Shown piece by piece: positions 12,410-40,556 of a DNA stretch of 64,000 nt. The position numbers were made by a program, and so were the translations under genes. Position 1 is the stretch's first letter. Every line of letters starts with the position of its first letter. This DNA comes from Kineococcus xinjiangensis (GTDB lineage Bacteria; Actinomycetota; Actinomycetes; Actinomycetales; Kineococcaceae). The stretch spans positions 124,001-188,000 of the forward strand of contig NZ_PTJD01000006.1 in the NCBI RefSeq assembly GCF_002934625.1, read 5' to 3'. Below the pieces are notes generated by a model, which did no database searches, was not told the origin of the DNA, and worked only from the letters and a program-made list of their open reading frames with translations.

Positions 12410-12720
12410 GCGTCCCCTGCCTCCGCTTCCGCTGCTGCTCGTCGGTCGTCGGCTCACACCGACCATCGATGCCCGCAGCAACCACTCTCGGCGGCATGAC
12501 GCGCACAGGGGCCATTCCGTTGCAGCCCCGCGACGATGCCCCCTGGGGCGAGGCGGGACCAGGCGGGGCGGGACCAGGCGGGGCGGGACCAGGCGGGGCG
12601 GGACCAGGCGGGGCAGGACCGGGCGCGGCCGGTCCGGGCGGGTGGACCGGCCCGGCCCCGTGGTCCAGGTAGCTGTGGCGCCGGGCACCTGCGCCGAGCG
12701 GTCGACGCACCGCGGACATG
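12410..12720. other. gene-free spacer with a 15-bp tandem repeat
   Basis: Spacer between the ctaF terminator and the L,D-transpeptidase start. It contains four copies of a 15-bp unit (listed separately). A short plus-strand ORF at 12496-12672 would encode GPGGA repeats but has no ribosome site or promoter-like hexamer at the right distance, so I see no supported gene. Confidence 0.5.
12556..12615 (+). repeat. minisatellite, four copies of GGACCAGGCGGGGCG
   Basis: Four head-to-tail 15-bp units; the first three are identical and the fourth differs at its last base. A diverged fifth unit follows. The period is a multiple of three, so the repeat stays open in frame (GPGGA on the plus strand). 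It is intergenic and probably arose by slippage. Confidence 0.85.
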
Positions 12721-35052: not shown

Positions 35053-36579
35053 GTGGTCGAGCTGATGCTGTCCGGCAAGAACCCCAAGAGCTACGCGGGC
35101 GACGCCCTGGTCGTGGGCGTTGCGCAGCGCGACGGCGCGGCGGTGGTGGTGGCCGACGGCCTGCCCCGTGCCGTGCGCGCCGCGCTCGGCGAGGCGGCCG
35201 CCCGGTTGCGGGTGAGCGGTGCCGCCGACTCCGTGGACCTGGTGCCGGGGGTGGAGGGCGTGAGCGCCGGCGTCGTCGCCCTCGTGGGCCTCGGTGCGGC
35301 CGCCGAGGGCGGCCGTTACGACGCGGAGGTCCTGCGCCGGGCCGCCGGCCGCGCAGCGCGGGCCCTGGCGGGGCGTGCCAGCGCGGGCTTCCTGCTGCCC
35401 GCCGGCGACGCCGCCGGGGTGGGGGCGGTCGCCGAGGGCGCTGCGCTCGGGGCCTACGCCTTCACCCGCTTCCGCTCCTCGGCGGGCGCGGAGGGCGCCT
35501 CGGCGTCGCAGCCGCTGGCGGAGGTCACGGTGCTCGGCGCGAAGCCGCGCGACGAGGACGTCGCCGCCGCGGTCGAACGCGCCGGGATCCTGGCCCGCGC
35601 CGTGGCCGTCACCCGAGACCTGGTCAACACCCCGCCCGGCCACCTGCCCCCCGCCGACTTCGCCGCGGCTGCGGTGGAGCACCTGGCGGGCACCTCCGTG
35701 GGCGTGCGGGTGCTCGACGAGGAGGACCTCTCCGAGGGCGGCTACGGGGGGCTGCTCGGGGTCGGGCAGGGCTCCTCGCGCCCGCCGCGGCTGGTCGTCC
35801 TCGACTACGCCCCCAAGGGCGCCACCGGCCACCTCGCACTGGTGGGCAAGGGCATCACGTTCGACTCCGGCGGGCTGTCGCTGAAGCCAGCCTCGGGCAT
35901 GGAGACGATGAAGTGCGACATGGCCGGCGCGGCCGCCGTGCTCGCCGCCGTGCGCGCGGTGGCCGACCTCGGCCTGCCGCTGCGGGTCACGGGCTGGCTG
36001 GCGATGGCGGAGAACATGCCCTCCGGCACCGCGCAGCGCCCCTCCGACGTGCTCACCACCTACGGCGGCAAGACGGTGGAGGTCCTCAACACCGACGCCG
36101 AGGGCCGGCTCGTGCTCGCCGACGCGCTGGTGGCGGCCGGGGAGGAGGAGCCGGACCACATCGTGGACGTGGCGACCCTCACCGGCGCGCAGATGGTCGC
36201 CCTCGGCAACCGGGTGTCCGCGGTGATGGGCAACGACGATGCCCTCCGGGAGCGCTTCCTCGCGGCCTCGGCCGCCGCCGGGGAGCAGTTCTGGCCGATG
36301 CCGCTGCCGGTGGAGCTGCGCTCGAGCATGGACTCGCAGGTGGCGGACATCGCGAACATGGGCGACCGCTTCGGCGGGATGCTGGTGGCGGGCCTGTTCC
36401 TGCAGGAGTTCGTGCCTGCCGGACCGGAGGGCCGGCCGCGCCCGTGGATCCACCTGGACATCGCGGGCCCGGCCTTCAACAGCGGCTCCCCGCACGACTA
36501 CACGCCCAAGGGCGGCACCGGCGTCGCCGTGCGAAGCCTGGTCGCGCTGGCCGAGTCCCTGGCAGGTTCGAGTACTTAG
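35053..36579 (+). CDS. pepA: leucyl aminopeptidase (M17)
   Basis: 508 residues. A two-metal cytosolic aminopeptidase. The M17 signature NTDAEGRL starts at residue 346; the metal site VGKGITFDSGGLSLKPASGM and the MKCDMAGAAAVLAAVRA helix are intact. An N-terminal alpha/beta domain of about 170 residues precedes the catalytic domain. GTG start, leaderless-type promoter. Followed by the EWPRA-repeat gene on the same strand. Confidence 0.95.
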   Translation: MVELMLSGKNPKSYAGDALVVGVAQRDGAAVVVADGLPRAVRAALGEAAARLRVSGAADSVDLVPGVEGVSAGVVALVGLGAAAEGGRYDAEVLRRAAGRAARALAGRASAGFLLPAGDAAGVGAVAEGAALGAYAFTRFRSSAGAEGASASQPLAEVTVLGAKPRDEDVAAAVERAGILARAVAVTRDLVNTPPGHLPPADFAAAAVEHLAGTSVGVRVLDEEDLSEGGYGGLLGVGQGSSRPPRLVVLDYAPKGATGHLALVGKGITFDSGGLSLKPASGMETMKCDMAGAAAVLAAVRAVADLGLPLRVTGWLAMAENMPSGTAQRPSDVLTTYGGKTVEVLNTDAEGRLVLADALVAAGEEEPDHIVDVATLTGAQMVALGNRVSAVMGNDDALRERFLAASAAAGEQFWPMPLPVELRSSMDSQVADIANMGDRFGGMLVAGLFLQEFVPAGPEGRPRPWIHLDIAGPAFNSGSPHDYTPKGGTGVAVRSLVALAESLAGSST

Positions 36580-36675
36580 TGCGATCTAGTGACTACAGAC
36601 CGTAGAGTGACGGTGGCGTCCCGGCGCCACCCCTCGACCCGCCCCTCGCACGGCGGCCGAACCGCAGGAGGAACC
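36580..36675 (+). promoter_or_regulatory. upstream region of the EWPRA-repeat gene
   Basis: The segment around 36566-36608 is unusually AT-rich for this genome and contains TAGAGT (36603-36608), a possible -10, with no clear -35. The would-be leader carries a 7-bp hairpin, GGTGGCG / CGCCACC (36612-36631), before the AGGAGG ribosome site at 36667. Confidence 0.35.
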
Positions 36676-36927
36676 ATGTCGCTCTCGTCGACCGCACGTC
36701 GCGCCGCCCTCGCCACCGCCGCGACCGCACTGGCGGCCGTCTCCCTCGTCGCCGCGGCGGGAACGGCCTCCGCCGACACCTCCTCCGCGATCTCCCTCGA
36801 GAAGAGCAGCGCCTCGACGGCGGAGTGGCCCCGTGCCATGGAGTGGCCCCGCGCGACGGAGTGGCCCCGCGCGACGGAGTGGCCCCGCGCCATGGAGTGG
36901 CCCCGTGCCATGGAGTGGCCCCGCTGA
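36676..36927 (+). CDS. small secreted protein with six EWPRA(M/T) repeats
   Basis: 83 residues. A Sec signal peptide (RRAALATAATALAAVSLVAA, cleavage predicted after ASA near residue 35) is followed by a short Ser-rich linker (DTSSAISLEKSSASTA). The rest is a C-terminal array of the hexapeptide EWPRA(M/T): five full units plus a final EWPR ending at the stop. The mature product would be about 48 residues. The start is firm: AGGAGG lies four bases before ATG 36676. It sits between pepA and lpdA with its own hairpin terminator. I do not recognise the family. No peptide-modifying enzyme, protease or transporter gene is next to it. There are no cysteines, so no disulfides. Confidence 0.8.
   Translation: MSLSSTARRAALATAATALAAVSLVAAAGTASADTSSAISLEKSSASTAEWPRAMEWPRATEWPRATEWPRAMEWPRAMEWPR
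36823..36924 (+). repeat. 18-bp tandem repeat encoding EWPRA(M/T)
   Basis: Five 18-bp units and one partial 12-bp unit, starting GAGTGGCCCCG. Units differ only at positions that alter Met/Thr or are synonymous (CGT/CGC, GCC/GCG), so the Glu-Trp-Pro-Arg-Ala core is invariant. Confidence 0.95.
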
Positions 36928-36964: not shown

Positions 36965-37001
36965 GACGGCGGCGCCGCGGACTTCCCGCGGCGCCGTCGT
37001 C
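36965..37001 (+). terminator. terminator after the EWPRA-repeat gene
   Basis: A 16-bp stem with one G-T pair (GACGGCGGCGCCGCGG / CCGCGGCGCCGTCGTC) and the loop ACTTC, 38 bp after the stop. Confidence 0.8.
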
Positions 37002-37140: not shown

Positions 37141-38514
37141 GTGGCCGATGCGCCGGAGTACGACGTCGTCATCCTGGGCGGGGGCAGCGGTGGGTACGCC
37201 TGCGCGCTCCGCGCCGCGGAGCTCGGCATGTCCGTGGCCCTCATCGAGAAGGACCTGCTGGGCGGCACCTGCCTCCACCGGGGCTGCATCCCGACCAAGG
37301 CCCTGTTGCACGCCGCCGAGGTCGCGGACTCCACGCGCGAGAGCGAGCACGTCGGCGTCCGGGCGACCTTCGAGTCGATCGACATGGCGGGGGTCAACAA
37401 GTACAAGGACGGTGTGATCGCCCGCCTCCACAAGGGCCTGCAGGGACTGGTGAAGTCCCGCAAGGTCACCCTCGTGGAGGGCGAGGGCCGTCTGGTGGCA
37501 CCGAACGCGGTCGAGGTCGCCGGCACCCGCTACACCGGCAAGAACGTGGTGCTCGCCTCCGGCTCCTACTCCCGCTCGCTGCCCGGCCTGGAGATCGGCG
37601 GGCGCGTCGTCACCAGCGAGCAGGCGCTCGGCCTGGACCACGTGCCCGACCGGGTCGTCGTCCTCGGCGGCGGCGTGATCGGCGTGGAGTTCGCCAGCGT
37701 CTGGAAGTCCTTCGGCGCCGAGGTCACCGTCGTCGAGGCCCTGCCGCGCCTGGTCCCGCTGGAGGAGGAGTCCATCAGCAAGGCGCTGGAGCGGGCCTTC
37801 CGCAAGCGGGGCATCAAGTCCAGCCTCGGCGTGCGCTTCGCCGGAGTGGAGCAGAACGACTCCGGCGTCGTCGTGAAGCTCGAGGACGGCAAGACCTTCG
37901 AGGCCGACCTCCTGCTCGTGGCGGTCGGGCGCGGCCCCAACACCGCCGGCCTCGGCTACGAGGAGCAGGGCGTCACCATGGACCGCGGCTTCGTCCTCAC
38001 CGACGAGCGCCTGCGCACCAACGTCGAGGGCGTCCGCGCCGTCGGTGACATCGTGCCCGGCCTGCAGCTGGCCCACCGCGGCTTCCAGCAGGGCATCTTC
38101 GTCGCCGAGGACATCGCGGGCCTCAACCCCGTGCCGATCGACGAGACCGGCATCCCCAAGGTCACCTACTGCGACCCCGAGATCGCCTCCGTCGGGCTGA
38201 CCGAGGCGAAGGCGCGCGAGCAGTACGGCGACGTCGACGTCGTCGAGTACAACCTCGGCGGCAACGGCCGCAGCCAGATCATCGGCACCCAGGGCTTCAT
38301 CAAGCTCGTCCGGCGCAAGGACGGCCCCGTCGTGGGGGTCCACATGATCGGCACCCGCATCGGCGAGCAGGTCGGCGAGGCCCAGCTGATCGTGAACTGG
38401 GAGGCGTACCCGGAGGAGGTCGCGAACCTCGTCCACGCCCACCCGACGCAGAACGAGGCGCTGGGCGAGGCGTTCCTCGCGCTCGCGGGCAAGCCGCTGC
38501 ACTCGCACGCCTGA
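37141..38514 (+). CDS. lpdA: dihydrolipoyl dehydrogenase (E3)
   Basis: 457 residues. It reoxidises dihydrolipoyl groups with NAD. FAD-binding ILGGGSGGYACALRAAELG, the redox-active pair Cys44/Cys49 in GGTCLHRGCIPTKAL, NAD-binding VVVLGGGVIGVEFASVW, and the C-terminal His-Glu of the active site in HAHPTQNEA are all present. GTG 37141 has GAGGGAG upstream. It is followed by sucB, forming the usual E3-E2 pair. Confidence 0.96.
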   Translation: MADAPEYDVVILGGGSGGYACALRAAELGMSVALIEKDLLGGTCLHRGCIPTKALLHAAEVADSTRESEHVGVRATFESIDMAGVNKYKDGVIARLHKGLQGLVKSRKVTLVEGEGRLVAPNAVEVAGTRYTGKNVVLASGSYSRSLPGLEIGGRVVTSEQALGLDHVPDRVVVLGGGVIGVEFASVWKSFGAEVTVVEALPRLVPLEEESISKALERAFRKRGIKSSLGVRFAGVEQNDSGVVVKLEDGKTFEADLLLVAVGRGPNTAGLGYEEQGVTMDRGFVLTDERLRTNVEGVRAVGDIVPGLQLAHRGFQQGIFVAEDIAGLNPVPIDETGIPKVTYCDPEIASVGLTEAKAREQYGDVDVVEYNLGGNGRSQIIGTQGFIKLVRRKDGPVVGVHMIGTRIGEQVGEAQLIVNWEAYPEEVANLVHAHPTQNEALGEAFLALAGKPLHSHA

Positions 38515-38645
38515 TAGCCGGTGGGGAGGATGCCCGCAGGTCGTCCCGACGGCGGCCGCACGCCTCCCCGCCGCTGACCCCCCAGCAACCCGGCGTTCCC
38601 CCGGAGCGCTGAGCTAGCCCGTCGTCCGTGAGGAGAACGAAGCAG

Positions 38646-40556
38646 ATGTCGAACTCGGTGCAGATGCCGGCGCTCGGTGAGAGCGTCACCGAGGGCACCG
38701 TCACGCGGTGGCTGAAGCAGGTCGGGGACACCGTCGAGGTCGACGAGCCCCTGCTGGAGGTCTCCACCGACAAGGTCGACACCGAGATCCCCTCCCCCGT
38801 CGCCGGGGTGCTGGAGGAGATCCTCGTCGGCGAGGACGAGACCGTCGAGGTCGGCACCGACCTCGCCCGCATCGGCGACGGCAGCGGCGGCGGCCAGCAG
38901 GACTCCGGACAGGACGACGCCGGCCAGGACGCCGGGCAGGACGACGCCGGCCAGGACGAGGCGCCCCAGCAGGACGCGCAGGAGCAGGACTCCGACCAGG
39001 ACTCGGGGCAGCAGGAGAAGCACGAGGCACCGCAGGCCGAGGCGAAGCCAGCCTCCGGCGGTGGCACCGCCGTGCAGATGCCGGCGCTCGGTGAGAGCGT
39101 CACCGAGGGCACCGTCACGCGGTGGCTGAAGCAGGTCGGGGACACCGTCGAGGTCGACGAGCCCCTGCTGGAGGTCTCCACCGACAAGGTCGACACCGAG
39201 ATCCCCTCCCCCGTCGCCGGGGTGCTGGAGGAGATCCTCGTCGGCGAGGACGAGACCGTCGAGGTCGGCACCGACCTCGCCCGCATCGGCGACGGCAGCG
39301 GCGGCGGCCAGCAGGACTCCGGACAGGACGACGCCGGCCAGGACGAGGCGCCCCAGCAGGACGCGCAGGAGCAGGACTCCGACCAGGGCGAGACCCTCGC
39401 CGACGAGGTGGAGGAGCGCGCACAGGCGCACGAGCAGGCCGCCAGCGCCACCTCGCCCGACGCCCAGCAGGAGCACACCCGCCAGACCCAGGAGACGGGC
39501 AGCGCGGACTCGGCCCCGGAGGAGGAGACGGAGCCCGCGCCGCAGTCGGGCGGGGCGCCCGCCACCGGCGGCACGACCTACGTCACCCCGCTCGTGCGCA
39601 AGCTGGCCGCCCAGCACAACGTCGACCTCAACACCCTGCAGGGCACCGGGGTCGGGGGACGCGTCCGCAAGCAGGACGTCCTCGAGGCCGCCGAGCGCGC
39701 CGCGAAGGAGGCGAAGGCCGCCGCCAAGCGGGCCAAGGACGCCAAGGACGCCGAGGCGAAGGCCAAGGCGAGCCAGCCCGCGGCGGCCGCGCCCGCGCCC
39801 GCCGCCGGTGGCGCTCCCGCCCACCCGGCCGCCTCCGCCAAGCGCGGCACGACCGAGAAGATGTCCCGCCTGCGCAAGGTCATCGCGCAGCGCATGGTGG
39901 AGTCGCTGCAGACCTCCGCGCAGCTGACCACCGTCATCGAGGTGGACATCACCCGCATCGCGAAGCTGCGGGCGAAGGCGAAGAACGGCTTCGAGGCCCG
40001 CGAGGGCGTGAAGCTGTCCTTCCTGCCGTTCTTCGTCAAGGCGGCCATCGAGGCCCTCAAGCAGCACCCGGTGCTCAACGCGAGCGTCGAGGGCGACTCG
40101 ATCGTCTACCACGGCAGCGAGAACGTCAGCATCGCCGTGGACACGCCGAAGGGCCTGATCGTCCCCGTCATCAAGGACGCCGGGGACCTCAACCTGGCCG
40201 GCATCTCCCGCAAGATCGCCGACCTGGCGGACCGCACCCGGTCCAACAAGATCACGCCGGACGACCTGGCCGGTGGCACCTTCACCATCACCAACACCGG
40301 CAGCGTCGGCGCTCTCTTCGACACGCCGATCATCAACCAGCCGCAGGTCGCCATCCTCGGCACCGGTGCCGTCGTCAAGCGTGCGGTCGTCGTCCCCGAC
40401 GCGGACGGCAACGACTCCATCGCGATCCGGTCGATGATCTACCTGGCACTGTCCTACGACCACCGCATCGTCGACGGGGCCGACGCCGCCCGCTTCCTGC
40501 ACACCGTGAAGCAGCGGCTGGAGGCCGGCGAGTTCGAGGGCGAACTCGGCCTCTGA
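38646..40556 (+). CDS. sucB: 2-oxoglutarate dehydrogenase dihydrolipoyl succinyltransferase (E2) with two lipoyl domains
   Basis: 636 residues. Two lipoyl domains (about 4-80 and 142-218), with the lipoylated lysines Lys43 and Lys181 in VSTDKVDTE, are identical in protein and DNA over 274 bp. Acidic Gln/Asp linkers ([18 protein letters not shown]) follow each. An E1/E3-binding domain lies at about 311-350 ([20 protein letters not shown]) and the catalytic acyltransferase domain ends with [16 protein letters not shown] (His606, Asp610). Actinobacterial E2 proteins serve as the succinyl- and often acetyl-transferase core. ATG 38646 is chosen over GTG 38628; GAGGAG lies ten bases upstream. Confidence 0.94.
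38658..38931 (+). repeat. 274-bp direct repeat, copy 1 (first lipoyl domain of sucB)
   Basis: Identical base for base to 39072-39345, at an offset of 414 bp. Beyond the exact block, the downstream linker also matches after a 27-bp insertion in copy 1. Confidence 0.95.
39072..39345 (+). repeat. 274-bp direct repeat, copy 2 (second lipoyl domain of sucB)
   Basis: Exact copy of 38658-38931, including synonymous positions, which points to recent duplication or ongoing gene conversion. Confidence 0.95.

Follow-up and report, generated by a model that had tools for sequence, protein, structure and literature searches.

Gene content and reading signals at the pepA-lpdA locus

The window (the whole 64-kb stretch of DNA analyzed here) contains, between pepA (leucyl aminopeptidase, 35053–36579, named from its sequence motifs) and lpdA (dihydrolipoyl dehydrogenase, 37141–38514), a small open reading frame on the same (+) strand at 36676–36927. 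Its translation is an 83 amino acid exported repeat protein that consists of a signal peptide, MSLSSTARRAALATAATALAAVSLVAAAGTASA, and a linker, DTSSAISLEKSSASTA, followed by EWPRAM, EWPRAT, EWPRAT, EWPRAM, EWPRAM and EWPR with the stop codon. The Glu-Trp-Pro-Arg motif is thus present in six copies, five EWPRA[M/T] units and a final EWPR. The signal peptide is of the Sec type and occupies residues 1–33 (36676–36774), ending in ASA before D, with the cleavage site after AxA read by eye. The linker of 16 residues (36775–36822) leads into the tandem array (36823–36924), and the last EWPR and the stop codon make up a C-terminal box at 36913–36927. A ribosome binding site, AGGAGG, lies at 36666–36671, 4 nt 5′ of the ATG, and the GC3 of the frame (0.93) is the value expected for a gene of a GC-rich genome. 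The first-pass annotation, made from the letters alone, had described a small exported repeat protein, and the open frame, the Shine-Dalgarno sequence, the signal peptide of Sec type and the array of 18-bp units in frame are all there.

Tandem Repeats Finder reports the 18-bp array at 36822–36924 (5.7 copies, 91% matches, score 164) as the top-scoring tandem array of the 64-kb window. The exact pattern GARTGGCCNCGNGCNNNNGARTGGCCNCG, DNA of the EWPRAxEWPR type, is present five times in the window, and 395 other genomes of the order contain no exact copy of it, so the array is not a product of chance, and we regard it as confirmed. Its only variable sites are CGC/CGT, GCC/GCG and ATG/ACG. Two other repeats were seen in the window: a 15-bp tandem repeat, GGCGGGGCGGGACCA, in 6.4 copies at 12547–12642, apparently intergenic, and, in the lipoyl-domain acyltransferase gene at 38628–40556, short tandem repeats in Asp/Gln-rich linkers that follow two near-identical lipoyl domains.

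Upstream of the gene, a promoter-like region of lower G+C content (36570–36611) ends in GTGACGG and in part resembles a conserved block, TATGCT...GTGACG, of the sister genus Kineococcus. There a promoter-leader stretch of 117 bp is common to six genomes (L094–L099) at 81–100% identity, with strong matches at this gene only; the resemblance of the window's promoter and leader to it is partial, and the short promoter pattern lacks the specificity needed to trace other targets. The leader hairpin and terminator of the first-pass annotation each stand in part. A leader stem, GGTGGCG...CGCCACC, is present at 36612–36631, but the leader folds no more stably than shuffled sequences (z -1.1). Downstream, a strong 16-bp inverted repeat lies at 36965–37001, but it has no U-tract; it is plausibly a terminator, and several Kineococcus loci also show GC-rich stems at this place. 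Independent transcription of the gene is plausible. The Kineococcus leaders likewise fold no better than shuffles, and a candidate RNA switch in them, in which GTGACG would pair with either of two CGTCAC segments, one beside the Shine-Dalgarno sequence, was rejected, its consensus fold containing no compensatory change.

Searches for relatives of the EWPRA array

Comparison of the protein with 59 relatives gave compositional matches only and no sequence relative, and neither Pfam nor NCBIfam gave a match above the curated cut-offs, in line with the earlier statement that no described family is like it. Rfam gave no meaningful match, a phage search found no EWPRA match, and the literature search found no paper on the EWPRA motif, the gene or its kind. 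The one plasmid match, in Priestia, proved to be unrelated (its annotated frame encodes an NTPMPP repeat). The sole locus among the matches listed in a GTDB-wide contig scan (L054) has a stop just upstream in frame and unrelated ATGWPH repeats; the scan covers the matches listed only and may miss near relatives, so it is not proof of absence. Within the searchable genomes the EWPRA array appears, by sequence, to be private to this genome, in a set that holds no second genome of the window's genus, so that absence outside the species is not proven. We also asked whether EWxR before a stop is a general C-terminal signal in this genome; there are five pattern matches, and the other four are not convincing genes.

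Counterparts in Kineococcus

With lpdA as an anchor, ten genomes of Kineococcus could be read upstream of that gene, and every one of them has a small exported repeat protein in the pepA-lpdA slot on the same strand as the window gene. One of these genomes (G003) is K. radiotolerans, its 6,000 compared bases being 100% identical to the K. radiotolerans plasmid NC_009806.1. The repeat units are of RKES or KKE[A/S] type, 5–8 amino acids long and in 6–16 copies. RKES-type heptads occur in K. radiotolerans (RKESVTA), G004 (RKESTVA, 16 units), G006, G007, G010 and G011; G001 and G009 have KKEAAPL and AKKESxTL-type units, and G002 and G008 have mixed unit spacings. In a search of 149 genomes of the order, no strong match to this RKE/KKE-type protein fell outside the family to which Kineococcus belongs. 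Two of the arrays pass a Pfam cut-off (RNase_Y_N, 37.0 against 32; bZIP_1, 27.7 against 27.6). We judge these to be low-complexity helix matches, because the score for RNase_Y itself is 23, where the cut-off is 454, and other members stay below the cut-offs; the NCBIfam matches of the Kineococcus arrays are of the same nature.

The window protein has no [RK]KE in its EWPRA[M/T] unit, and so it is a divergent positional counterpart outside the RKE/KKE subgroup. Several features tie it to the Kineococcus proteins. They share locus, strand, signal peptide, Shine-Dalgarno sequence and a tandem body, and the GGAGG of the ribosome binding site is unchanged at all 11 loci. All 11 proteins end in E-x-x-R and TGA (GAG-NNN-NNN-CGC-TGA in DNA), the window's terminal EWPR being the counterpart of EWLR, EKER and ERER before the stop in Kineococcus. 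G001 and G009 end in TEWLR; their DNA, GAGTGGCTGCGCTGACC, agrees with GAGTGGCCCCGCTGACC of the window at 15 of 17 bases including the stop. In a background of 4577 ORFs, an HMM of the N-termini from the ten Kineococcus proteins picks out the window gene with E = 2e-4, ahead of every other ORF that is not the Kineococcus gene. This match deserves less weight, since its compositional correction is large and two distant ORFs come close to it in score. The linker plus first box, LEKSSASTAEWPR, is more like LKKESTPTEWLR of G001 than most shuffled sequences are (77 of 5000 do as well), and the linker may be a relic of one KKES-type unit; both are suggestive only. The Kineococcus proteins differ from it in having RKES, KKEA or KKES units of 5–8 amino acids, mostly more copies, higher charge and a leader only partly alike.

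From shared position, strand, signal peptide and C-terminal E-x-x-R, the window gene appears to be homologous to the Kineococcus slot genes, and it is very probably the local version of an exported repeat protein which evolves fast and lies between pepA and lpdA in the family including Kineococcus. The first-pass statement that the family is unknown therefore needs to be divided: the EWPRA sequence is private in the searched set, but positional counterparts are found in every readable Kineococcus genome, and a search with the EWPRA(M/T) pattern misses them because the Kineococcus repeat differs. Two observations that were to count against the gene, no homologue in related genomes and lost frames or stops in sister arrays, were not made; at the level of the positional family there are counterparts at all ten loci, and all 11 arrays, the window's included, are open and in frame.

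These findings also bear on whether the frame might be no working gene but a by-product, a minisatellite that expanded recently in a frame which is decaying or arose by chance. The absence of EWPRA from the other genomes searched would fit such an origin, as would the minimal variation of the array, which is what recent expansion leaves behind; but the signal peptide, Shine-Dalgarno sequence, intact frame, GC3 of 0.93 and C-terminal box are retained, and in ten relatives the locus has kept an intact gene for an exported repeat protein, so we consider it very improbable.

In other families of the order (L057, L059 and L066) a different exported protein lies upstream of lpdA; it contains an [NS]HGxYVS...VSEAAR segment, and its tail is of low complexity. 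In L066 it is directly 3′ of pepA, and the one of these proteins that was tested has no Pfam family. The slot may hold exported low-complexity proteins across several families.

Origin and evolution of the repeat body

The relatives' slot holds an exported protein with a quite different repeat, which suggests that one repeat took the place of another in the course of evolution. The signal peptide and the C-terminal box are kept, and the body between them is very probably exchanged through tandem duplication. Most likely the window array is an amplified C-terminal box that displaced an older KKE/RKE array. In the simplest history, whose direction is inferred, the ancestor had a KKE/RKE body and an EWxR end, and the window lineage lost the body and amplified the last 18 bp.

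A total of 102 Kineococcus units were compared; they were found through [RK]KE, so that their common core is partly a matter of construction. Seven arrays are strictly regular in spacing, however, and can therefore have no interior unit that lacks [RK]KE. The Glu and Lys codons show silent changes, and a Ser follows [RK]KE in 83 of the 102 units, encoded by TCC, TCG or AGC. Units are more alike within species than between them (0.83 against 0.64 in DNA, 0.87 against 0.58 in protein; none of 2000 label permutations reaches this), which indicates homogenization by repeated duplication. Purifying selection on the core, which had been proposed for the window array, cannot be judged there, because recent duplication explains both its silent and its Met/Thr variation; the comparison does support such selection on the core of the Kineococcus arrays.

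Possible function of the exported chain

Our preferred reading, held tentatively and at somewhat less than even confidence, is that the mature protein works extracellularly, as an elongated repetitive chain that owes its specificity to the E-x-x-R end. After Sec export and removal of the signal peptide, a chain of 50 residues would remain outside the membrane, extended, largely unfolded and multivalent, and each unit would present one short motif to a partner in the wall or matrix. The Kineococcus proteins would make this contact through one C-terminal box at the end of a long charged spacer, and in the window protein the contact itself would be sixfold. A common partner is not assured, because the units are chemically unlike and vary in length (6, 7 and 8 amino acids; 32% charged residues in the window array against 38–54% in Kineococcus). 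Structure predictions by AlphaFold without an alignment leave the window array unstructured at low confidence and make the (STVARKE)16 array one long helix at high confidence, the latter being weak evidence because idealized repeats often give such helices; the two models would argue against a single common fold for all arrays.

Another possible function is that of a secreted, disordered, charge-rich bulk polymer which acts by its composition, in hydration, charge, wall or matrix filling or protection against drying, so that the exact unit is irrelevant. This accords with the Kineococcus arrays, where unit sequence, length and copy number vary freely while the charge pattern stays, but it agrees poorly with a window array in which only 32% of the residues are charged, the net charge is 0 and each unit has one Trp, and composition leaves the invariant E-x-x-R at the C-terminus unaccounted for; we think it rather unlikely, at perhaps one chance in a few.

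Other known proteins invite comparison at the level of architecture. In the yeast alpha-factor precursor a signal peptide is followed by short repeats that are almost identical and each contain a basic residue. Multi-core RiPP precursors of bacteria are ribosomal peptides with repeated short segments behind a RiPP leader; the window protein differs in that a Sec signal peptide replaces this leader and that no modifying enzyme or dedicated transporter is adjacent, its neighbors being pepA, lpdA and the lipoyl-domain acyltransferase gene, as the first-pass annotation had said of modifying enzymes. The closest described architecture is that of the fungal KEX2-processed repeat proteins (PMC6339444), which like the window protein have a signal peptide followed by near-identical short repeats with a basic residue in each; they are eukaryotic, however, and their cores are parted by KEX2 dibasic sites, whereas the window array has none of these and a single Arg per unit. 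We file the window protein with the exported low-complexity repeat proteins.

A further reading is a multi-copy peptide precursor, an exported chain that would be cut after each Arg in the window protein, or at the basic pair in Kineococcus, to yield many copies of one short, species-specific signal or effector peptide. Each array does have one basic site per unit, the last residue of all 11 proteins is Arg, as expected of a cut unit, and units are near-identical within species and different between them; yet no gene for a processing protease, transporter or receptor is adjacent, and the last unit of the Kineococcus proteins differs from the repeated ones. We regard such cleavage as unlikely. 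Its specific form, a bacterial counterpart of the fungal repeat-peptide precursors, in which a homogenized polyprotein would be cut at each Arg into hexapeptides and the unit swapped from lineage to lineage with no change of locus, export signal or C-terminal box, strikes us as distinctly improbable. If the repeats are cut into peptides, bacteria would have their own version of a strategy that is described in fungi.

The 11 genomes make up a natural series at one locus, an exported protein with constant ends and a swapped repeat body, and since the C-terminal box is the likely source of the new unit, the birth and replacement of protein repeats may be traceable here. The series also points to an exported protein, not described so far, in the cultured and radiation-resistant K. 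radiotolerans.
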